DNA from: Pontiellaceae bacterium B12219
Lineage (GTDB): Bacteria > Verrucomicrobiota > Kiritimatiellia > Kiritimatiellales > Pontiellaceae
NCBI GenBank assembly: GCA_029432795.1
Contig: JARNMJ010000018.1
Span: 1 to 64,000 of the forward strand
Reading direction: 5' to 3'
Length of the DNA stretch: 64,000 nucleotides
Each line of letters begins with the position of its first letter. Position 1 is the first letter of the stretch. The translations under genes and the position numbers were made by a program. Below, piece after piece: positions 24,007 to 38,632 of the stretch. The notes beneath the pieces were generated by a model that made no database searches, was not told the origin of the DNA, and saw nothing but the letters and a program-made list of their open reading frames with translations.

Positions 24007-24768
24007 TTATGCGACGAAAGCGTCCCTGTGTTCATCCATTGCCTGCGGGTCAGGAGCGAAACGGTGGGGCATTGTTAGTTTGGTGCCTTCGAGCCGGGCG
24101 AAGTTGATGGATTGAAACTCGGAAACATCTCGGCTTTTCAGCACACTGGAAACCACCAGTTTGTAATGTTCGTCGAAGGTGATCAGGTGGCGATCAAAGG
24201 CTTTATCATGCAGGACATTCAAACAAAGCCCGTTGGTTGGGTCGGCTCGACGCTCCTTATTTTCGTTCCAAGGAATGATATGACTGGCAACGAGTAATTG
24301 CCGTTCTGCCAACCCTGTGAGTGCACACTGACCTTCATAGCTTGCCAACACAGCGTTTCGGAAAAAGCGTTGGAGTCGCCGGGTTTTCACTGTTCGTTCT
24401 GTTTCCGATGGACCGGTTGGGATGTCGATGGAGACTTCCGATATTGACGAGATAGGACTTTCTCCGAACAGGCTGTCGAAAGCAGCTACGCTTTTCTCAA
24501 CCATTCCTGTCCAGTCCAGCTGAAAATCTGCCCAGACTTTTCTATCGAGATTGCTGGCTCCTTTTAGACCAACAATCCCACGTTCTTGGTGATAGGAGTC
24601 GAGTGATGCCAGATTGCAGAGTTTCATAGAAAGAGATGCAGGCGTTCTGAGCATCTTCTCTGCAACTTCACGAACATGCTTATTCGATTGGTCAAACTGG
24701 CCAAAAGGAAGCCGGCAATAGAGATTCATTGCAACCAACAATTCCTGTTCTGTCCAATTTCGACGCAT
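24007..24768 (-). CDS. HNH endonuclease domain protein
   Basis: 253 residues. The C-terminal half (about 150-220) carries CALTG, ASHIIPWNEN and DPTNGLCLNVLHDKAFD, the HNH_2-type restriction-like nuclease motif. The N-terminal half is helical and includes a DNA-binding-like segment. Thirty-seven bp separate it from the upstream vsr gene on the same strand, so the two may be co-transcribed. It is likely a modification-dependent or restriction-type nuclease; no methyltransferase is adjacent. Confidence 0.82.
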   Translation of the reverse strand: MRRNWTEQELLVAMNLYCRLPFGQFDQSNKHVREVAEKMLRTPASLSMKLCNLASLDSYHQERGIVGLKGASNLDRKVWADFQLDWTGMVEKSVAAFDSLFGESPISSISEVSIDIPTGPSETERTVKTRRLQRFFRNAVLASYEGQCALTGLAERQLLVASHIIPWNENKERRADPTNGLCLNVLHDKAFDRHLITFDEHYKLVVSSVLKSRDVSEFQSINFARLEGTKLTMPHRFAPDPQAMDEHRDAFVA

Positions 24769-26308: not shown

Positions 26309-29300
26309 ATGAAAACGATCACCTCCAGTTTAATTTCCCGTTTATCGATGCTGAGCTTCATGCTGCTGTTCAGCCTCTGTTGGAACCCTTCTGTTTCGGC
26401 CATGACGGCCCGGCCGCTGAATCAGGAATTTCTCGATGCCACCCTCCCGAACGATATTTTCTGGCAATATGAATCGACCCTCGATGGCCGGATGGAACTG
26501 CGGGGCGACAGCACCTCGACCGTCACCGAAAATATTCCGGGAAATCCGGTTTTGTTTTCCACCTACAGCGGCGGAAACCGAATCCGGGCAAACTTTTACC
26601 GTTGCGACCAAACCACCGAGCTGACGCGTCAGGGCTTTTATCTGGGCCGCTCCCAGTCCACCACGGTTCAGTTTGCGATTTATGAAAGCTCCACGGAAAC
26701 CGGAACCTACAATCTGCTTTCATCCACCTCGGTCACTGCGGCAATCGGAACCAATTTTGTCTACGGCACCATGAATACCGTTATGCAGGAAGGAAAATTT
26801 TATCTGATCGGTGCCAGCTGGAACAACGCATCGCAGTACCGTTCTTCGGGAACCCATCCCCAGCAACCGATTTTTGGAGAAAGTCTGGGCGGCTATGAAT
26901 CCAACGTGTATCCGCCGGCGGCCACGGTCTCCGGCAGCACAAAAAACACCCTCGTATACGTTCAGACGCTGGAAGTGAGCACCAATATGGTCATGCGTAT
27001 GGATGACCGCGTGAACGGCTCGGGACTTTCCACCAACAGCGTCGGCATCATTTTCGGTCTGGGCGGGTACGATCCGCTCACACTCTCATTCAAACACCGC
27101 GCAGCCGGCGAGGAAGCCCATCCCGGAGACGGCATTTTTCTGAGCGGCGACAGCGGTACGACATTCAGCAAAATTTATGACCTTCCTTCCGGAACAACCG
27201 CCTGGCAGACCTTTACCCTCGATATCAATACCCTCGCCGCTCAGAATGGAATTTCGTTAAACGGAACGTCCGTGCTTAAATTCCAGCAGGTTGATGATTA
27301 CGGTTGGCCCACCGACGGCCGTGAATTTGATGACATCCGCCTGTATTCGAATCCCGACATTTTGCTGGATGATGCCGAATATGTCTCGGGCTCCGCTTCC
27401 AATATCTGGAAAAAAGGGCTCAGCATCCGGACCATTCCCCTGAATCTGGACACCTGGCTGATCGACGGATTAAATCCGGCCTCCTATCCCGGCGCGCAGT
27501 ATCGGGTTTCGATTCTCGACGGAGCAACCAGCGTCTATTCAAGAACCATCACACATCCCGTAAGCTTCCAATCATTGGAAACCGCCACCGACGATTGGAT
27601 TGCTTATTTTCAACTGCCCGGCACCACGCATTTTCCAAAGAATAATTACACGCTGAAAGTTGAAGCCGATTCCTCCAATCTGATTTCCGAAGGCCGGGAG
27701 GATAATAACAGCCGAACCCTGCCGCTCGTCATCAATAACTATTCCGGAAAACTGTATTTCGACGATATCGAAACCGAAATTACCGTCACCGATTGGAGCC
27801 GCACCTCCGACACCCACCACACCATCAGCGGAAACGGCCTGCTTTCGGGCTATCCTTTCACTTTCACGAATCTTCAGGTGATTAAAAACCTGACCACGCT
27901 GGACTACACCATGAATCCGGCGGACTGGCAGACGATCAACGTCGATGTGCCCGAGCAGTTTGAACAGCAGAATATACACTACGAATTCGGTTCCCCGGTC
28001 CGGCTCACCGCCAACGGCGGCACCGTGGATGTGGAGGTTCGGCTGCCTTCCGGGCTCGGCATTGCCACCCACCAAACCTACATGATGGATTCCACGATCG
28101 AATTCTATGATGTTCCTGTCGACACCGCGCTGACCATGACCGCGCCCTTAACCCGCAATGCCAACTTCCAGCTCTCGGAAGAAACCAAACCGCTGTGGAT
28201 TTACGCCACAAGCGCAACCTGGCATCCAACCCTTGGAACCTTTGAATTCACCAGCGGAGGCTCCGTCGTCTGCACCCGCACGGCAGGGCATGATTTCCTG
28301 GAAAGCAACAGTGCCAATCTGGACTCCCCGGAGCTCGCCCTTAAACGATCCAACGCGGAATACTACCGCTTTGTGGATTCCGTCCAATCCGATATCACAG
28401 TGACCACCACGGCCGATGAAGATGCCCGCCTGAGCGCAAAACTCGTTTTCAGCCCCGGCGAATTTTCACCCCATTTTCCCTATGGACCGGAAATCAGCTG
28501 GAACTACAGCAGCCAGCTTGAGCTGACGGATGACCTGCCGACAATGGGCAGCGCTCTGGCCGATCCATCCCCCCTGTCCATCTCTTACGCCACCACCTGC
28601 GCGGAAGCCGCCTGCTCGGCTCCTTCAAATCCGGAAACCATCCCCCTCTTTCCCAACGATTATTTCATGGCGTTCAGCAAAGACGGCGGACTCGATCTCC
28701 CGGTCTACTTCAACGGCACCGACATCCGCTGGGGCCTCGGACAAAACGGCCTTTATGCGCAGGAAGCGCTGAACTTCGATAAAGGGCGTTTTTATATGCC
28801 CGGCCATTTCATCCGAAACGATCAATCCCAACTGCCTGCCGACCTGAATATGGGGCCCGCTGTGATTCTCCTGTCCGGCATGCGCCCGGCCTCCGCCGAT
28901 ATGGAACGCCCCGGCCACTATTCCGGCAACGAAGATTATCGCGCCGGACTGGCCGATTATGCCGGCTTGAACCTGCGGGTTGAAGAGAACCTTGCGCGGG
29001 CGGCCCGCTCGGTTCTCGGCGGCGTGCAAACCGACCAGTGGCTGCAAACCGAGCGCTCGAAATATTACGTCCGCCCCTCCGGTGTCACCGGCATTCACGA
29101 AGCCGAACCGTACAGCTTCCCCAACACGCTTGAGATTTACGGCTATCTCCATCAGTTCGATCAATACGGACTTTCCTACCTTTCCGGCAACCCCGTAGAA
29201 AGCCGGACCGACGGCCTCGTCATGTTGCCCTATCCTTCCAGTTTCGATGTGGAATACGACGGGCTGCGCTTTGACTGCCTCGGCGAAATTCTCGGCGGCG

Positions 29301-32011
29301 AACTCGCCAATGCCTCCGACAAATTAATGGCCTATTGGAATGCGGTCATTGATCCGCGCACCTTCTTTTATGCCCCGACTGATGCAAGCACCTGCGCCAA
29401 CAGCGCCCGCGTCCTCTGCCTGGGAATCACCACCGCCTGCGCCAATATCGACGGCGTGCTGACCGGCGTTCTCGGATTCCTGCCCAATGGAAACCTCGCC
29501 AATAAAGCCGCCGGTGTGCAGAACGTCGATTCCCGCCTAAGCCTGCCGGACCGGATTAAACTGGATGGCCCCGGCAGCGAGGAATATCATTTCACGCCCA
29601 TTCTTTCCGCCTACTACAACGACTACGAAAATCGCGGTCCCGGTTTCTCCGACACCGGATGGATCAACTTTGCCGGCGCTCTGGATGTGGCCTTCTTCAA
29701 CGATCTGAATGTGCTGTTCCACACCAGCGCCAGCACCAACAGCACCACCGCACCGATTTATATGACCGGCGGTTTTTCCGATGATTCAAATGACACCTTT
29801 CATGTCAATCCCGGAACCTTTGACGAGCTGAATGCCGGCAAACCCTCCGGCGTAACCCTCGACGATTTCCGCTATCCGTATACCGATCAGTATCGGGTTC
29901 GTGCACAGAAAACCTGGCTGGAAGTCGTGAACTTTGATTATCCCCTCAACTGGTCCACCTCCACCAAATCCTTTAAATCCGCGGAGCCTGTCGAAAACGA
30001 TATTGTGATCCTGAAGCTGGAACATCAGGCCGATTATCTCAGTGCCGACCATGCCGAAATTTCGTTCGGCGTTCAGTACGACGGGCTCCCCCAGATTAAC
30101 ATCGCCAACATGGCCTTTAATGCCATCGATGAACAAACCGGCATGGCCTCCGCCGTGCTGAACAGCGTAAACAGTAATTTGTTCCAGACCATTTTTTCCG
30201 GTTTGGCCCAGTTCGACAAACTGCTCGCGGATGTGCCCGAACAATTATTCGAGCCCATTCTCGCGCAATCGGTGGACCCGATCGTCGATCAGCTCTATAC
30301 CCAGCTGAACATTGCCTACGCAGCCGCGCCGGATACCGATTATTATTCAGCCCTGATTCAGGGCTACGTCGCCGGCCCCGTCGGATCGGTCCAGGAACAG
30401 CTGGAAGATTTAGCCGATTCTTCCGGCAACGCCGTCAACATGCTCGATGAGATTGACGGACATCTGGAACAGGCGCTGCGGGTGATCGATGCCTTTGTCG
30501 ATACCGTTCAATACGATCCGCTGACCGGCCAGCAACTGGCTCAACCGATTTCCGGCCTGCTGAACCTTCAGGGAACCCAATTCGAGTTCCTCGGCGATTT
30601 GGCTGCCGGCATCGTCGGAACCATGGCCGCCGATCTGGCCAACGAACTGGCCGGAGAACTTGTTCCTGAACTGAACGAAACCCTTGAAGAACTGAAACCC
30701 GCGCTCGATACCGCCCGCGAATATCTAACTGAAATACGCGACGTGATTGAACAGGCCAAAGCGCAACTGGCCGACGGCGAATCCTTTGTCCGCGAACTGC
30801 AGAATGCACTCGACCCCGCGCAGCTGCAGGCCGCGATGGATGCGGCCGTGAGCGATCTCACGGAACAGTTTGACGAACTGCAGACGGCCGGCGATCTGCT
30901 GGAGGAATATACCGCAGAAGAAATTAAGACCATGATCCGCCAGTCGATTGAAGACCGGTTCTACTCCTCCCTCGCATGCTGTAATATCCAGCAGGTGATT
31001 CGCAGCCGGCTCTACGATGTTCAGGCTTCGGTGCAAACGGCCATCGACGGTGTTTTCCAGCAGGTCAACACCGCCATTAAAAATGTCATCGGCGAATATC
31101 TGACCGCCATCGATGAAGAAATCAACGGTATGCTCGGCGATCTTTCGGATCTCGTCGGGGCCGGACAGATCGACGGATACGCCCATATTAAACACGACTC
31201 GCTGACCGAACTTCGGCTGGACGGCGCCTTCCAATGGAAAGTGCCGGAAGAGATGGAATTCTCGGCGTATATGATTATCCGCCAGCTGAATGCCGACGGA
31301 TCGTCCAGTTGCGGATTGCCGGGCGATAATGCCACGGAAGTGGTTCTCGGCACAGATGATGTCGGACTCAGCTGGGTCGGCTCCGATCTGCGGGCGAAAA
31401 TCAACACGAAGTTTGCCTTCTCATCCGGGCCGTTCAAACCGATCGGTCTGGCCGGCGCGTTCGAAATGACGGAAGGAAGCGTCAGCTTTGAAGCCTTTAA
31501 AATCACCGAGCTCTATGCGGCGGCGGCCTTCGGTGCCCGGGAGAACTATCTGTCCGCGGCCCTGCGCTGCGAAATGACCAGCTTTGAAGTGGAAGGCGGT
31601 GTGTTCTTCGGGCGCACCTGCAGTCTCGATCCGTTTGCGTGGGATCCCGATGTTCAGGGCATTCTCGGCGATCCGCCCTTCACCGGCGTGTATGTCTATG
31701 GCGAAGGCTGGATGCCCATTGTCGACTACGGCTGTCTCTTCCGCATCAAGGCCGGCGTCGGCGCAGGCATGTTCGCCTTCCTGGAAGGACCGATCGGAGG
31801 AAAAGTATTCCTCGGCGCGGAAGGCGAAGCCCTTTGCGTGGTGGGCGTACGCGGCGAAGTCACCCTGGTCGGCATGAAAAACGGCGACCTTATGCGGATG
31901 AAAGGCAAAGGCAAAATTTCAGGTAAAGTCGGGCCCTGTCCCTTCTGCGTCAAATTCAGCGCAAGCGCTGAAATCACCTATGAAAACGGCGATTGGGATG
32001 CCGATTATTAG
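26309..32011 (+). CDS. Giant secreted CARDB-containing protein (1900 aa)
   Basis: A 1900-residue protein with a Sec signal (about 1-31). After a beta-rich region, a CARDB-like domain lies near 345-480 (ends ISEGREDNNSRTLPLVIN). The middle is beta-rich. From about 1280 to 1610 long amphipathic helices follow (ELAGELVPELNETLEEL, TAREYLTEIRDVIEQ). The C-terminal 260 residues are beta-strand repeats rich in Gly, with a CPFC pair near the end. No catalytic motif was recognised. Likely a surface or secreted scaffold or filament component. AAGGA lies 7 nt before ATG. It is nine bases from the next gene. Confidence 0.8.
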   Translation: MKTITSSLISRLSMLSFMLLFSLCWNPSVSAMTARPLNQEFLDATLPNDIFWQYESTLDGRMELRGDSTSTVTENIPGNPVLFSTYSGGNRIRANFYRCDQTTELTRQGFYLGRSQSTTVQFAIYESSTETGTYNLLSSTSVTAAIGTNFVYGTMNTVMQEGKFYLIGASWNNASQYRSSGTHPQQPIFGESLGGYESNVYPPAATVSGSTKNTLVYVQTLEVSTNMVMRMDDRVNGSGLSTNSVGIIFGLGGYDPLTLSFKHRAAGEEAHPGDGIFLSGDSGTTFSKIYDLPSGTTAWQTFTLDINTLAAQNGISLNGTSVLKFQQVDDYGWPTDGREFDDIRLYSNPDILLDDAEYVSGSASNIWKKGLSIRTIPLNLDTWLIDGLNPASYPGAQYRVSILDGATSVYSRTITHPVSFQSLETATDDWIAYFQLPGTTHFPKNNYTLKVEADSSNLISEGREDNNSRTLPLVINNYSGKLYFDDIETEITVTDWSRTSDTHHTISGNGLLSGYPFTFTNLQVIKNLTTLDYTMNPADWQTINVDVPEQFEQQNIHYEFGSPVRLTANGGTVDVEVRLPSGLGIATHQTYMMDSTIEFYDVPVDTALTMTAPLTRNANFQLSEETKPLWIYATSATWHPTLGTFEFTSGGSVVCTRTAGHDFLESNSANLDSPELALKRSNAEYYRFVDSVQSDITVTTTADEDARLSAKLVFSPGEFSPHFPYGPEISWNYSSQLELTDDLPTMGSALADPSPLSISYATTCAEAACSAPSNPETIPLFPNDYFMAFSKDGGLDLPVYFNGTDIRWGLGQNGLYAQEALNFDKGRFYMPGHFIRNDQSQLPADLNMGPAVILLSGMRPASADMERPGHYSGNEDYRAGLADYAGLNLRVEENLARAARSVLGGVQTDQWLQTERSKYYVRPSGVTGIHEAEPYSFPNTLEIYGYLHQFDQYGLSYLSGNPVESRTDGLVMLPYPSSFDVEYDGLRFDCLGEILGGELANASDKLMAYWNAVIDPRTFFYAPTDASTCANSARVLCLGITTACANIDGVLTGVLGFLPNGNLANKAAGVQNVDSRLSLPDRIKLDGPGSEEYHFTPILSAYYNDYENRGPGFSDTGWINFAGALDVAFFNDLNVLFHTSASTNSTTAPIYMTGGFSDDSNDTFHVNPGTFDELNAGKPSGVTLDDFRYPYTDQYRVRAQKTWLEVVNFDYPLNWSTSTKSFKSAEPVENDIVILKLEHQADYLSADHAEISFGVQYDGLPQINIANMAFNAIDEQTGMASAVLNSVNSNLFQTIFSGLAQFDKLLADVPEQLFEPILAQSVDPIVDQLYTQLNIAYAAAPDTDYYSALIQGYVAGPVGSVQEQLEDLADSSGNAVNMLDEIDGHLEQALRVIDAFVDTVQYDPLTGQQLAQPISGLLNLQGTQFEFLGDLAAGIVGTMAADLANELAGELVPELNETLEELKPALDTAREYLTEIRDVIEQAKAQLADGESFVRELQNALDPAQLQAAMDAAVSDLTEQFDELQTAGDLLEEYTAEEIKTMIRQSIEDRFYSSLACCNIQQVIRSRLYDVQASVQTAIDGVFQQVNTAIKNVIGEYLTAIDEEINGMLGDLSDLVGAGQIDGYAHIKHDSLTELRLDGAFQWKVPEEMEFSAYMIIRQLNADGSSSCGLPGDNATEVVLGTDDVGLSWVGSDLRAKINTKFAFSSGPFKPIGLAGAFEMTEGSVSFEAFKITELYAAAAFGARENYLSAALRCEMTSFEVEGGVFFGRTCSLDPFAWDPDVQGILGDPPFTGVYVYGEGWMPIVDYGCLFRIKAGVGAGMFAFLEGPIGGKVFLGAEGEALCVVGVRGEVTLVGMKNGDLMRMKGKGKISGKVGPCPFCVKFSASAEITYENGDWDADY

Positions 32012-32020
32012 AGGACCATT

Positions 32021-35000
32021 ATGATTGGAAATAACAGATTTAAATCAGGACTGAACGCGGCGGCTCTATCCGTGGCACTGGCAGTTACCCTGCTGCCCCG
32101 GTCATCAGACGCTCAGAACAATCAGGGACTCGGCAATATGATTTTCACGGCGGGCACGGTTGCCACCGATGAAAACGGGCGGGACTGGGCCTATCTCAGC
32201 TGGATGGCCACCGACCTTTCGATGCTGCTGGGTGTGCAGTACGACATCTATGCCAAACCGGGCGACTTTGATGATCCCGTCCCCTATCAACTCAAGGGCA
32301 CCGCGCAGCTCCATACCGACCCGCAGTCGATCACTGTACTGAGCGGGCAGGCTGTAAATCTCGGGCAGGACTTAAGCCAATTGGAAGATGTCATGGATCA
32401 ACTGTTCGCCGAAGCCGTGCCCGCCGGGGATCTGACGCTTGGCGAAAAGGTTGCGGCGGTCATCGACGGGTCCATTGAGGATACCCGAATGTTTCAGAAT
32501 ATCGTCTTTATGTCGCAGGCCCACCCGGCCCTCACTTTGGCGCTCGGCCGGGGCTTTGCCTGCCGGCTCGATACCGAAGGCATTACCAGCTTTGAAATTC
32601 GCGATCACAACACCGGCGAAATCATCGGCCGGATCAGCGTGGAAGCCGGCAATCCGCTCATCCTTCCGGCCCCCGGAGCGATGACACAGGTTTATGACAC
32701 CTCACCCAAAGGACATCTGAATATCCGCCTGCGCTGGACGGTTCCCGATGCGTTGCGGCGGCTTTCGCTCATGCAGTTCGGCTATAACCTGTATCGCATG
32801 GATTATGACTTTGCTGTGAATCATGGATACGATGGAACGCCACCCGGTACCGCCTTGCTGCAGGAGCTGGCACAGGCGAACCCGCAGGTTAAACGGGTGA
32901 ATAATCTGCCGATTCTTCCGGATGAAGATGCGGTTGAACCGAACACCTATTTCTTTATTGATGACAACGACGGACTCAGCGGCGGCGTTCCTTTTGTGGA
33001 CGGGGAACAATATGTTTATTTTGTCACCGCATTGGATCTGCTCGGTCGGGATGGCGACGTTTCCGACGGATTTACCGCAGAAGCCTGCGACCGGGTGGCC
33101 CCGCGTGTGCCGAAGGACATTCGTACCCGTGCGCTCTACACCTTCGACGAGGCTGAGAACGCGATACAGTCGGTGGAGATTTCCTGGGATCAGGATCCCG
33201 ACGCCGCCGAAACACATGCCTATTATGTCTATCGCTACGACAGCATTGCCTCCATGCAGGCCAATGCGGCCAACGAATTTGCGGGCCGGATTGCCGGGCC
33301 GATTTCCCGCCGGGATAATGTGGACCGGCTGCTGTACACAAATGTGCTGTCAGCGGCTGATCAGGACCGCACCTATTGGTACACCGTGCGGGCCATTGAC
33401 GATGCCGCATGCGGACCGAACCTTTCGCTGAACAGCGCACCGGTTCACGGCGGCATTCACGACTGGGAAGGACCGGAGGATCAGGGCGACGCAGGTGTCA
33501 GCATTTATGTGCAAACGCTGAACTGTCGTGCAGATCAATTTGGCAGCGGCCCTGACGTTCCGGATTACGATCTGGAGTTGAACTGCCTCCGGACCAACGC
33601 CGGCGTTGAATGGGTTGAATTCGCCTACATGCCCGGAGAGGGCACCGGTCAGCCAAACTATACGCCTGCGATCTTTACGGGACGCCACTATTTCGGAGAC
33701 AGCCCGGAGGTTAAGGTGCAGGTGAAGCTGCCGGAAGGGCACCTCACATACTACACGATATACTGCCGGGTCGGCAACGGAATGAAAACCAGTGATTATG
33801 TAACTGCCGTCGGCAGTGTGAAGGGAACCGGCATTGCCAATTTTGTCTGCGGAGCCTCCTACGGCTATACCGATGACTCCAGCGAGGGCCCCCATATTAC
33901 AAATACCGGCCTTCCCTATTTTCCGATTCTGCAAGCTGAAGTTCCGGATGGAGCCGGTGAATATCGATTTTACCGACGCGTGAACAACGGCCCCCGGACT
34001 CTGATCGGTCAGGGCGAAACCACCAATGCGCTCGTCATTACGGAATCCGATGAACAGGCCTTTATCGCAAACGGCGGAACCATTTGTTACTACTACCAGT
34101 TCTTCGACTTTAACGGAAATCCCGGACCGATGACGCTGATCGACTGCATTCCAATGGCTCGCGCCATAGCGCTGCCCGTTCCGGTTTTGAATCCGATTGA
34201 AAGCAGTGGAACCGAAATGGCATCGCCGGGAATGGAAGCCGGCTGGTTCTGTGCTCCGCAGGGCGTTGAACGTTTTGAAGTGGCCATCCACAAAGCTTCG
34301 GGAACCGCTCTCCTGGAAACATTCAGCCCCGATCTGCGGGATATTGAAAACAACGGCATCACCAACTTTGCCAATGTCATGCTGGACGGATCGCTAACCA
34401 ACCTCGCTTTCCAAACGTATATGACCGGCCGGGTCGGCGCCAATTTCGGGCTGCCGGATCAACCGGAATTTTTGATTACCGCCGGAATTGAGCTGGGCAC
34501 AGAATATATTCTGATGGTTCGCGCCACCGGCCCCAACGGCGAACGCGGAACATGGAGCGAAGCGCAGTCTTTTGTCTGGTCGCCCACACTGACGCCCGGC
34601 CCGGATGTGCCCTGGCCCGCCCGCAACCTTCCTCCGGTTGAAGATGCACCGTTCCATCCTGATATTCATGCCGAACTGCTTGTGCCCGATGGTTATGACC
34701 TCCTGCCGAATCCGGTCTATCAAGGCATCAACGAACCCCGTATCGGCATTCAGATCGGAAGCATTCCCACTCAATTCATCTTAAAGCCCCCTTCGAGTTC
34801 AGGAATCGTCATCAACAATATCGGCGACCCGTCGGCTTACCTCTACACCAATGCCGATGGCGAAACGGTATTCCCCTGTGTGCTCTATCGCGTTCAGGTG
34901 GATTCGCCTCAATACCCGAATGTGAAAGGCGATATGGTTCAGGTTTCCGTACTCATGGAAGCACTGGCATGGGGACAGGGTACGTATGAATCGTTGATCT

Positions 35001-35182
35001 ATGACCCCTTTGTGGCTGCCGCACGAACAAGCACGAATGAAGATTGGGATCTCTACCTGCTCGATACCCATCCGATGGTCTATGGCGCATCCTATCGCTA
35101 TCTGCTTGTTCGCTTCGGGCCGGATGGAGAGATGCTCAAAATTTACAACGTCGGAACCGTTAGCATTCCGCAAAAACCTTAA
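32021..35182 (+). CDS. Secreted FN3-like protein (1053 aa), second of three
   Basis: 1053 residues with a Sec signal (about 1-31). A long beta-rich protein; fibronectin-III-like segments are suggested near 235-265 (LNIRLRWTVPDAL) and 385-480 (VEISWDQDPDA; YWYTVRAIDDA) and again later (FVWSPTLTPGPDV). No catalytic motif is seen. GAGGACC precedes the ATG. Its close spacing to the genes before (9 bp) and after (15 bp) makes co-transcription near certain. Function inferred as extracellular adhesion or structural partner of the 1900-aa protein. Confidence 0.75.
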   Translation: MIGNNRFKSGLNAAALSVALAVTLLPRSSDAQNNQGLGNMIFTAGTVATDENGRDWAYLSWMATDLSMLLGVQYDIYAKPGDFDDPVPYQLKGTAQLHTDPQSITVLSGQAVNLGQDLSQLEDVMDQLFAEAVPAGDLTLGEKVAAVIDGSIEDTRMFQNIVFMSQAHPALTLALGRGFACRLDTEGITSFEIRDHNTGEIIGRISVEAGNPLILPAPGAMTQVYDTSPKGHLNIRLRWTVPDALRRLSLMQFGYNLYRMDYDFAVNHGYDGTPPGTALLQELAQANPQVKRVNNLPILPDEDAVEPNTYFFIDDNDGLSGGVPFVDGEQYVYFVTALDLLGRDGDVSDGFTAEACDRVAPRVPKDIRTRALYTFDEAENAIQSVEISWDQDPDAAETHAYYVYRYDSIASMQANAANEFAGRIAGPISRRDNVDRLLYTNVLSAADQDRTYWYTVRAIDDAACGPNLSLNSAPVHGGIHDWEGPEDQGDAGVSIYVQTLNCRADQFGSGPDVPDYDLELNCLRTNAGVEWVEFAYMPGEGTGQPNYTPAIFTGRHYFGDSPEVKVQVKLPEGHLTYYTIYCRVGNGMKTSDYVTAVGSVKGTGIANFVCGASYGYTDDSSEGPHITNTGLPYFPILQAEVPDGAGEYRFYRRVNNGPRTLIGQGETTNALVITESDEQAFIANGGTICYYYQFFDFNGNPGPMTLIDCIPMARAIALPVPVLNPIESSGTEMASPGMEAGWFCAPQGVERFEVAIHKASGTALLETFSPDLRDIENNGITNFANVMLDGSLTNLAFQTYMTGRVGANFGLPDQPEFLITAGIELGTEYILMVRATGPNGERGTWSEAQSFVWSPTLTPGPDVPWPARNLPPVEDAPFHPDIHAELLVPDGYDLLPNPVYQGINEPRIGIQIGSIPTQFILKPPSSSGIVINNIGDPSAYLYTNADGETVFPCVLYRVQVDSPQYPNVKGDMVQVSVLMEALAWGQGTYESLIYDPFVAAARTSTNEDWDLYLLDTHPMVYGASYRYLLVRFGPDGEMLKIYNVGTVSIPQKP

Positions 35183-35197
35183 CGACAGGAACGGGCT

Positions 35198-38100
35198 ATG
35201 ATGAGGGCAATCAGGAATGAATTTAAACGCGCCGCTTTAATCGGCATCGTCGGTTGCACGGCAGCCATCTCACATGCGGGTTTTGTCTCGGAAACCGCAA
35301 CGGAGTTCTTCACCACTGCGGATCTGAACGGCAACGGGTTCCCCGACATCGTCGTGGTGGATAAAGCCAGCGGCACGTTCCGCGCAGGATATCAGCTATC
35401 GGATCAGGTTTTCACCTGGTCGGAATCGCGCGGACTCGGAGCCACCAACATCACCGGTCTGGCCACCGGCCCGATGCTCGATACCGGATTTGATGCCATT
35501 GCGGCCGCAACGCCCCTTCTCAACCGGGTTAATCTGGTCAAGGCGCTAAACGCAACCCAATCCACATTCCCGATTCCGGTGTTTGGAAATGAGTACGGCC
35601 CGGAAACCCTCGTTTCGCTCGAAATCGGCGGCGACACACCGGAAGCGGATCTCCTGGTGATCAATTCCATGAGCACCCCTTCCCCTTACCGACTGGAACA
35701 GATTCAGTCCCTCGGCAGCAGTTTTAACCCAGAGGTCGCCTATAGCATTTCCGATGTTTGGAAACGCGGTAATGCCGTGGTGTTTAATAACTCCGATGTG
35801 GCAGCGGCATTCATGGATCGCAGCGTAAACGCCTTACGCATGTATGATTTTTCATCGGGCTCGGTTAACCACCTGAATTCCAAGTTTTTCAGCGGTGCAT
35901 TAACCGCCCCGGACTACTGCCCGATTTATCCCACGCCCGGCGGTTATGTCCACCTCTTCGCCTGGGATACCGGAACCGCCAACTGCTATCGGTTCCAGAT
36001 GACGACCGGTGAAAACTTTTCCGCACTGACCGCCGTCAACTTCGGTGCGCCCATTGCTTCGGTTCATTCCATTCCCGCGGATGGAACGGATTGGCTCATC
36101 GTCATTTTCGCGGACGGATCGGCTAAAGTTTACAGCTATGACGGAATCCAGAATCCAATCTTTCTTCAGAACCTTCCGCAACCGGCAACCGGTTTGGCCT
36201 ATTCCGGAATCGTTCCCTCCGGAAACGATCAGTTTATGGCGCTGACGGCCGATCCTGCAACCGGCCAATCGACCGCCTCCGAAAATTTTATTTTCGACAA
36301 CGGGACCTTCACGAGTCTGGGCTCCCAGTCGCTGCCGGACGTAAAAAGCACACGCGGCCGGGCCAACGTGTTCACATTCAAAAACGAGCCCTTTGTCAGT
36401 TCGAATCCCCAGCGATTACAGGCATTAGCTTCCGGTGACTGGTCTCGAAAAGGCGATCTAACGGGCAGCCCACTCAGCGTCGATGTTGAAGTTGAAACCG
36501 ACCGGGGCTTGCCGCTCGGATTAGGCAATCGAAACGGAAGTCTGCTCGGATATGCCGATTTGGATGCGGCCCACGTACTTGTTAATCAGGCCGGCGATTC
36601 CTTCTCCGTGCACAGCACCGAAGCCGCATTGGGCTATCAGGCAGCGGAAGCCTTTATTTCGCCCGCGCCGGGTCATTACCGAACCGGCATTCAAATCTCA
36701 TTTTCCAACACGACCGGAGATGACATTTTTTACCGCGAAGCCGGTTCCAATGTCTGGAACCCCTACACACAGCCCATTCCTGTGTTTAAAAACTCCGAAC
36801 TTCTGTTTTTTGCGCAACGCGATGGCGACATTGAACGCGGCCCCATTCAGACCGCAACCTACACCTTTGATGTGCCCCCCGAAAAACTTGATTCCGACGG
36901 CGACTCGATTCCTGACTATGTTGAACTGGCCAACGGACTCGATCCGCTGCAAAGCGGGCTCGATGGCGACGGCGATGGCTTTTCCGATTTGGAAGAATTG
37001 CTTGGCGGCTCCGATCCGACCGACCCGGCCAGCGTCCCCGTTCTTCCAATCCCGGGAACGTCCGGCCGCCTGGAACAACAAACAACATTTGATCTGCAGG
37101 TCACCCCCATCCCCTATGATGGAACGGCAGATACCGTCACCGCCTGCACAACCGGAACGGCCTTGCGCGTCTACAGCAGCTCCGGCTGGCAATATGCCTA
37201 TGGCGTTGCTTCCAATCAGGTCGGAAGTGCCGATCCTTCCATTCTCTTCACCAATCTTCCTTCAACCATTGAGTCGGGATTTTTCACGGTGCTGACCGAA
37301 CGGCATTTCGCCATCGATACGCCCAACTGGAATAAGAACAGAGGCATTGAAATGGCGGCTGTGCGCATCCCGCCTTCCATTACCGCACTGGAAGTAACGG
37401 CGCCCTATTCCGATACCGACATCTACACAGATGCCGGTCTATGGATCGATGCGGCATACTCCGCACTGACCAACAGCATCACCCCGAAAATCCTCACGGA
37501 TTTGACGACGGAAGATGTTCTCACCGCTATGCTTGTTGAGCGGAAACTGATGGATGAACTCTACGACGCCGCAGTGATTACCAATCGCTTAACCTCCCTC
37601 TTCCCGGCGCGACCTTCCGACCGGACCATGGACCGAGTTGCTGTTTCTGATTTGCTGTATTTAAGGAACAACACCAATCGGTCCTTTCTGCCGGAAACAG
37701 TAATTCAGGAAATCGGCACCTATGTAGGAAATGCCGGAAGCGCCGCCCTTCGGGCGCTGACCGAAGACCTGTATGATATCTGCAGCACGTATACCGATTC
37801 GAATCCCGGGGCCTACCCGCTTCCCATGACCGTGCTGCGGGACTTTCTATTGACGGGCACTCTGCATTCCAACTATTGGAGCAAGCTCCCCGCATTAACC
37901 GCGCCTCAGCTTTCCGCCATCCACACCGATGCCATGAATGCCTTGGATCTTGTGAATGCACGACCGATTGAAAACCTGATGCTCGAAGTACGCGAAGGCT
38001 CCTTCACCAATACCTGCCCGGTTTTATGGACCGGAAGTAACCTGGCAAAAAGTCTGTACGATGCAGCGGGCCGGCCCTATATCATGCCCTTCTCTTTCGA

Positions 38101-38632
38101 GCTCGGTATCGGTGCCACGGTGCAGGCGCAGGGTTTCACCGATGTTGCCTGGAACCGCGTGCCGGGAACAGATCCGGTTCAAATCATCAGCCTCAGTCTC
38201 ACGGCGGTCCCCGTTTCTTCCGATCTCGATGCCGATGGCAACCTGTTGCCGGATGCCTTTGAAAATACCGTACTTCAAGGAACCGGAAACGTGGCCCATC
38301 AGGATTCCGATTCAGATGGCTACAGCGATCTGCAGGAATATCTCGACGGCACCGACCCCGGCGATTCCCTGAGTGTTCCTTCGGGACCGATTGCCGATCT
38401 CAGTCCGCCGGAAATTTTCATCACCTCACTCGGGGCGGATCAGGTCCAATTGGATGTGCAGTGGCCGGCGGCCTATGCCGCTTCCTTCAGATTTTCGGTT
38501 ATCTATTCAGACAACCTCGCTGATGCCGGATTCTCAGCAGTCGATGAGCTGAACCCCGGCGCACTGAGCACCGTGCTGAATACCTCCTCATCCGACGCCC
38601 GCTTTTTCAAAATCGGAATCAGCCTGCGCTAG
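35198..38632 (+). CDS. Secreted protein with VCBS-like and thrombospondin-3-type repeats (1144 aa)
   Basis: 1144 residues, Sec signal about 1-28. An FG-GAP/VCBS-like motif opens the mature protein (ADLNGNGFPDIVVVDKASG). A chitobiase C-terminal-like domain lies near 480-560. Calcium-binding thrombospondin-3 repeats lie near 566-612 (DSDGDSIPDYVEL, DGDGDGFSDLEEL) and 1009-1055 (DSDSDGYSDLQEY). The last strand ends RFFKIGISLR, a common PVC tail ending. Calcium-dependent extracellular function is inferred. It is the last gene of the three-gene operon; the alternative Met at 35201 is equally possible. Confidence 0.78.
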   Translation: MMRAIRNEFKRAALIGIVGCTAAISHAGFVSETATEFFTTADLNGNGFPDIVVVDKASGTFRAGYQLSDQVFTWSESRGLGATNITGLATGPMLDTGFDAIAAATPLLNRVNLVKALNATQSTFPIPVFGNEYGPETLVSLEIGGDTPEADLLVINSMSTPSPYRLEQIQSLGSSFNPEVAYSISDVWKRGNAVVFNNSDVAAAFMDRSVNALRMYDFSSGSVNHLNSKFFSGALTAPDYCPIYPTPGGYVHLFAWDTGTANCYRFQMTTGENFSALTAVNFGAPIASVHSIPADGTDWLIVIFADGSAKVYSYDGIQNPIFLQNLPQPATGLAYSGIVPSGNDQFMALTADPATGQSTASENFIFDNGTFTSLGSQSLPDVKSTRGRANVFTFKNEPFVSSNPQRLQALASGDWSRKGDLTGSPLSVDVEVETDRGLPLGLGNRNGSLLGYADLDAAHVLVNQAGDSFSVHSTEAALGYQAAEAFISPAPGHYRTGIQISFSNTTGDDIFYREAGSNVWNPYTQPIPVFKNSELLFFAQRDGDIERGPIQTATYTFDVPPEKLDSDGDSIPDYVELANGLDPLQSGLDGDGDGFSDLEELLGGSDPTDPASVPVLPIPGTSGRLEQQTTFDLQVTPIPYDGTADTVTACTTGTALRVYSSSGWQYAYGVASNQVGSADPSILFTNLPSTIESGFFTVLTERHFAIDTPNWNKNRGIEMAAVRIPPSITALEVTAPYSDTDIYTDAGLWIDAAYSALTNSITPKILTDLTTEDVLTAMLVERKLMDELYDAAVITNRLTSLFPARPSDRTMDRVAVSDLLYLRNNTNRSFLPETVIQEIGTYVGNAGSAALRALTEDLYDICSTYTDSNPGAYPLPMTVLRDFLLTGTLHSNYWSKLPALTAPQLSAIHTDAMNALDLVNARPIENLMLEVREGSFTNTCPVLWTGSNLAKSLYDAAGRPYIMPFSFELGIGATVQAQGFTDVAWNRVPGTDPVQIISLSLTAVPVSSDLDADGNLLPDAFENTVLQGTGNVAHQDSDSDGYSDLQEYLDGTDPGDSLSVPSGPIADLSPPEIFITSLGADQVQLDVQWPAAYAASFRFSVIYSDNLADAGFSAVDELNPGALSTVLNTSSSDARFFKIGISLR

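Follow-up and report, generated by a model that had tools for sequence, protein, structure and literature searches.

Three adjacent genes in a genome of the Kiritimatiellales (Pontiellaceae), each encoding a giant exported protein, are inherited and duplicated as one unit. Together they appear to constitute a real but undescribed cell-envelope machine; no published description of the trio was found in the searched open-access literature. The initial annotation had proposed an undescribed extracellular assembly, i.e., an adhesin, filament or S-layer complex. This general idea is supported by the co-occurrence of the genes and by the non-enzymatic folds predicted for two of their products, except that gene 1 more likely encodes an outer-membrane-anchored protein than a subunit of a free filament or S-layer. 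The whole stretch of DNA that was analyzed, below referred to as the window, spans 64,000 nucleotides. The closest named relative of its host is Pontiellaceae bacterium B1224, with 84% identity over gene 1.

Organization of the Locus

The three open reading frames are found on the forward strand of the window, at positions 26309−32011 (gene 1, 1900 residues), 32021−35182 (gene 2, 1053 residues) and 35198−38632 (gene 3, 1144 residues). They are separated by 9 and 15 nt, respectively, which confirms the tight spacing of giant-protein genes noted initially. All three N-termini display a 12-residue hydrophobic core (mean Kyte−Doolittle value >2) followed by an AXA-like site. Export of all three proteins, as originally claimed, is thereby a supported prediction on heuristic grounds. 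In gene 1 the putative signal peptide covers residues 1−31 (26309−26401, forward strand) and is, by the same heuristic, of the cleavable type expected for an outer-membrane barrel protein.

An enzyme domain was not found in any of the three proteins in searches against Pfam, NCBIfam, PADLOC, PHROGs and PDB sequences, consistent with the first reading of the sequence. The Pfam and NCBIfam searches returned sub-threshold matches only, i.e., CARDB in protein 1, and TSP3, CHB_HEX_C and FG-GAP in protein 3, while PDB sequence profiles gave chance-like helical or weak matches and nothing above these. The PADLOC and PHROGs matches are limited to the helical section of protein 1 and to the TSP3 section of protein 3. 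A defence system was rejected because the PADLOC matches reflect nothing more than a coiled-coil resemblance to the helical region of gene 1, to which the PHROG matches of this gene (best E 4e-5) are also confined, so that a phage tail or tape-measure protein was rejected as well. No relatives of gene 1 were found in viral contigs. A plasmid-borne trio was discarded since gene 2 had no match among 72,556 plasmids.

The genes that neighbor the trio differ outside the closest genomes, and apart from a small number of shadows and common genes, no fourth gene family recurs next to it. A Na/Pi symporter was considered as a fourth member and rejected. Its gene follows the trio in close Pontiella relatives alone, and the stretch between it and gene 3 contains the region's best promoter-like site (11/12). 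This sigma-70-like match (38633−38660, forward strand) ends 7 nt before the first ATG of the symporter gene, and this start may therefore be placed too far upstream. Just upstream of the trio, at 24007−25300 on the reverse strand, an HNH endonuclease and a Vsr-like mismatch endonuclease are encoded, which may be what is left of a restriction-modification or defence locus. Elsewhere in the window (49447−51126, forward strand), a single open reading frame fuses a ribose/galactose isomerase (RpiB/LacAB) domain to serine hydroxymethyltransferase.

Co-Inheritance of the Three Genes

The initial annotation stated that its idea would be refuted if the genes did not co-occur elsewhere, but they do so at every locus with enough sequence. 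A search with each protein in 97 relatives placed genes 1 and 2 in almost identical sets of genomes, with gene 3 adjacent. When GTDB representatives were scanned with an alignment of gene 1, 59 loci were obtained, all from Verrucomicrobiota/Kiritimatiellota, including one labelled Victivallales. All three genes are present in each of the 46 loci with enough flanking sequence; in the remaining 13 the contig breaks off inside, or shortly after, the last visible gene, as read from the coordinates. The order gene 1−gene 2−gene 3 is found in 44 of the 46, the exceptions being L127 (gene 2−gene 3−gene 1) and L139, in which genes 2 and 3 are divergent from gene 1. Among 388 phylum-sampled genomes, the gene 2 profile and a profile of the gene 1 barrel region each match 22, and these are the same 22. 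Trio identity across loci falls to ~25%, and collinear homologues of the trio across a phylum are found far above chance.

Paralogous copies keep their partners. Two genomes (G187 and G216; loci L163−L169) carry five and six copies of gene 1, and such divergent trio copies suggest a diversification of targets. In 12 additional stretches around gene 1 copies, gene 2 adjoins gene 1 in every case and gene 3 is next in 10, the fetched stretch or the contig ending at that point in the other two. Pairwise distance matrices of the three proteins are correlated (r 0.87−0.91), to which host relatedness contributes, and a tree built from the gene 1 core agrees with a long history of descent that includes several paralogous lineages. 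The related sequences in these counts are not independent samples. From the co-occurrence, the gene order, the paralogous copies with their partners, the distance correlation and the gene 1 tree, it becomes apparent that the trio is one unit of inheritance and duplication.

The trio is also present in G027, a relative that belongs to the same genus as the cultured Pontiella agarivorans, the genome of which comprises 4.44 Mbp (PMC10880615).

A few loci depart from the standard arrangement. In L079 (positions 5829−12203; G034, Pontiellaceae GMC3), a 2124-residue right-handed-beta-helix-like open reading frame with GGGV repeats is located between genes 1 and 2, the only insertion of its kind seen within the trio. 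In the single-contig assembly G024 (L075/L076), the gene 1 sequence is spread over three frames and that of gene 2 over two, which could be due to sequencing-error frameshifts or to real decay. G071 (L083−L087) harbors two trio copies, one of which has genes 1 and 2 on one contig and gene 3 on another. Both parts of this divided copy are found near members of the same ~340-residue gene family, possibly as a result of a mobile-element rearrangement.

Architecture of the Gene 1 Protein

The gene 1 protein consists of a lineage-variable N-terminus and a core (residues ~430−1900) that remains conserved and collinear at identities as low as ~25%. The N-terminal region (residues ~32−470; 26402−27718, forward strand) ends in a CARDB-like stretch. 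The CARDB-like module noted initially is real, but weak by profile (18 bits, under the cut-off). In Pontiella the N-terminus is composed of CARDB-like and other beta sequence, and other lineages have MAM-like, DUF5122 beta-propeller or other modules at this position. A ~250-residue N-terminal domain of the Verrucomicrobiia proteins was not detected in the Pontiella lineage.

For the conserved core, as for gene 2, there is no informative Pfam model. Residues 701−1900 were modelled with AlphaFold2 (AF2) from 52 sequences (mean pLDDT 79, pTM 0.55), giving a non-enzymatic fold prediction that has support. The model begins within a conserved beta-rich region (residues ~480−1230; 27746−29998, forward strand). 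This region is followed by acidic amphipathic helices (residues ~1260−1612; 30086−31144, forward strand), the last of which spans 58 residues and runs right up to the first strand of the C-terminal sheet. The remainder is an amphipathic beta region (residues 1616−1900; 31154−32008, forward strand), where ~16 strands, most of them 10−16 residues long, are modelled between residues 1616 and 1899. The original reading of the sequence, a long helical section that gives way to a Gly-rich beta section, is thus borne out by the model.

Evidence on the Proposed Outer-Membrane Anchoring

Anchoring of the gene 1 protein in the outer membrane is supported but unproven. At the level of sequence, the most telling feature is its C-terminus, which reads WDADY (31994−32008, forward strand) and resembles a beta-signal. 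The published signal is zeta-x-G-xx-[Omega/Phi]-x-[Omega/Phi], in which the last and the third-last residue are hydrophobic or aromatic (PMC10945584). Gene 1 agrees with the rule for these two positions, with the Gly located one position off the consensus and with the exception of one sub-clade (L121, L124, L128 and L164), which has a Gly/Ser/Lys tail instead. An end of the form [WFYLMIV]x[VIALFMY]x[FYL] is found in 40 of 51 gene 1 homologues, compared to 8 of 258 neighboring open reading frames (3%), and is absent from genes 2 and 3. The most frequent version is W-x-V-x-F/Y/L, and divergent Akkermansiaceae members have DIDF-like tails. As controls, all three Omp85 proteins encoded in the same genome have a terminal F, and so do nearly all of those from relatives. 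These beta-signal-like ends are thus a supported prediction. The offset of the Gly, the deviating sub-clade and the last strand, modelled at only 5 residues after a tight turn, speak against anchoring.

The strands that precede this end point in the same direction. Their alternation of hydrophobic and polar residues holds across the family, and the beta region has 3.5 strand-like amphipathic windows per 100 residues, as compared to 1.6 in Omp85 barrels of relatives and 1.2 in genes 2 and 3. Using VIA-align, the C-terminal part matches outer-membrane barrels of 16−22 strands with Z 11−14 but rmsd 9−10 Å, and these matches often take in the hairpin that precedes the helices. Because of the large rmsd of the porin matches, closure of the barrel is putative.

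The beta region is also rich in Cys (2.3%, compared to 0.06% in Omp85 barrels), which is unusual for substrates of the BAM machinery and, like a Foldseek match to ApoB, argues against anchoring. Six Cys residues are near-invariant (1668, 1771, 1809, 1843, 1877 and 1880), all of them in loops, where two follow odd-numbered and four follow even-numbered strands. Because each face would then hold an even number, the modelled positions would allow disulfides to form on either side of an up-down sheet.

Gene 2 and Gene 3 Proteins

The AF2 model of the gene 2 protein, based on 45 sequences, is a string of beta-sandwiches (pLDDT 83.6, pTM 0.44). From these values, the domains are considered reliable but not their arrangement. 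A helical insertion is modelled in the first sandwich (residues ~101−174; 32321−32542, forward strand). The predicted fold is non-enzymatic and is supported by matches to tandem FN3 proteins over residues ~41−855 (Foldseek E to 1e-14, VIA Z ~11). The FN3-like assignment made initially thus stands at the level of structure but not of profiles, as none of the 45 homologues matches any Pfam family, including FN3, at E 0.01. The fold is like that of contactin, titin, receptor tyrosine phosphatases and bacterial FN3 arrays, from which gene 2 differs by this lack of a profile match, by the helical insertion and by having fixed partners.

The gene 3 protein has an FG-GAP/propeller-like N-terminus in part of the family, followed by TSP3 clusters and a C-terminal beta domain. 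Both of the separate TSP3 clusters reported initially are real, but weak by profile; they are located at residues ~564−610 (36887−37027, forward strand) and ~1007−1058 (38216−38371, forward strand), the second, TSP3-like one being lost in some lineages. TSP3 is found in 24 of 32 gene 3 members, and the C-terminal part is shorter or lost in some lineages. Calcium-type repeat modules are thus present in the trio, as originally described, but make up a minor part of the proteins. A TSP3 cluster is shared with surface proteins such as myxobacterial MtsD/CglD (NCBIfam MtsD, E 2.4e-9 over that cluster), yet the likeness is confined to the TSP3 clusters at a score far under the family cut-off, and the remainder of the protein is unrelated.

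Proposed Function and Alternatives

The explanation we favor, to which we assign an even chance, is that one operon encodes three proteins that form an obligate complex in the cell envelope, with a role in adhesion or capture. The gene 1 protein would be exported by Sec and inserted into the outer membrane by BAM, where its C-terminal amphipathic region would close into a barrel of ~16−18 strands serving as the membrane anchor. The lineage-variable N-terminal beta modules and the helical region would be displayed at the surface or held beside the barrel. Both the FN3-type gene 2 chain and the propeller-like gene 3 protein, with its calcium-type TSP3 spacers, would be exported alongside the gene 1 protein and bind to it, so that the three may assemble physically. 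The result would be a large surface-attached structure that most likely serves to adhere to, or to capture, polymers or particles outside the cell. Adhesion-like modules across the trio (CARDB, MAM-like and propeller in gene 1; FN3 in gene 2; TSP3 and FG-GAP in gene 3) speak for such a role. Against this explanation, the termini of a barrel reside in the periplasm, and the N-terminal modules of gene 1 would need a route to the outside.

A more specific proposal, which we consider tentative, is that the trio constitutes an unrecognized outer-membrane system specific to Verrucomicrobiota/Kiritimatiellota. Here, a ~1900-residue barrel protein of the 18-strand type with a helical pore or periplasmic module would export or anchor two giant partners, with up to six copies per genome that carry differing N-terminal recognition modules.

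It is unlikely that the three proteins are instead soluble giants that co-assemble into a secreted or S-layer-like matrix without any membrane-inserted part. Signal peptides on all three proteins, as well as the Cys-rich beta regions and TSP3/FN3 modules typical of extracellular matrices, are consistent with a matrix, but the C-terminal signature of gene 1 and the extreme amphipathicity of its strands are not. A structural S-layer also fits poorly with the scattered distribution (22/388 genomes) and the multiple divergent paralogous trios. A homopolymeric S-layer is unlikely because the three proteins have different folds, and no SLH domain was matched in the trio proteins with Pfam or NCBIfam.

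Less probable still is that gene 1 encodes an outer-membrane export channel, similar to autotransporter or two-partner systems, that mainly serves to bring its two partner proteins, or its own N-terminal part, to the surface, with the pre-barrel helix plugging or guiding the pore. The 58-residue helix that reaches the C-terminal sheet and the two exported partners nearly always encoded downstream would suit a channel, as would VIA matches to the ushers PapC/FimD and the exporters PelB and BcsC. However, these matches are generic to barrels, with porins ranking equally high, a POTRA or usher domain was not found in gene 1 in Pfam profile searches, and the gene 2 and gene 3 proteins have no common C-terminal tag. 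Classical (type Va) autotransporters and other outer-membrane-anchored adhesins share with gene 1 a signal peptide, variable N-terminal beta modules, and a helix right before a C-terminal amphipathic barrel-like domain with an aromatic/Leu end. In contrast to type Va autotransporters, which have 12 strands, gene 1 has ~16−18 strands (~16 in the model), a 350-residue helical region, many Cys residues and two obligate exported partners, and the Autotransporter Pfam domain was not matched.

The least probable alternative is a soluble exported lipid or hydrophobe binder resembling the large lipid transfer proteins, in which amphipathic sheets and helices enclose lipid while the gene 2 and gene 3 proteins act as scaffold partners. 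The best Foldseek matches of gene 1 are ApoB100 (E 5.9e-5, prob 0.90), followed by MTP, vitellogenin and lipovitellin. The beta−alpha−beta order, the very amphipathic strands, the many Cys residues and weak apolipoprotein profile matches of the helices in 19 of 47 homologues agree with such a binder, but the TM-scores are about 0.1 at rmsd 36−62 Å, gene 1 probably has long helices in place of the alpha superhelix of these proteins, none of their Pfam families is among the 25 most frequent weak matches, and the C-terminal F/Y/L rule is left unexplained. The 50 best VIA rows contain none of these proteins. Apolipoprotein-like helices were rejected also because the profile matches reflect amphipathic composition and the charge pattern does not fit, the helices being acidic with few Lys/Arg, unlike those of lipid-surface apolipoproteins.

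Significance

The initial annotation had also named three unrelated known enzymes as a result that would refute its idea; the predicted folds of gene 1 (residues 701−1900) and gene 2 are both non-enzymatic. The Verrucomicrobiota, abundant in seas, soils and guts as degraders of polymers, have a surface machinery about which little is known. Three giant envelope proteins whose genes are strictly co-inherited offer a testable entry point to this machinery.
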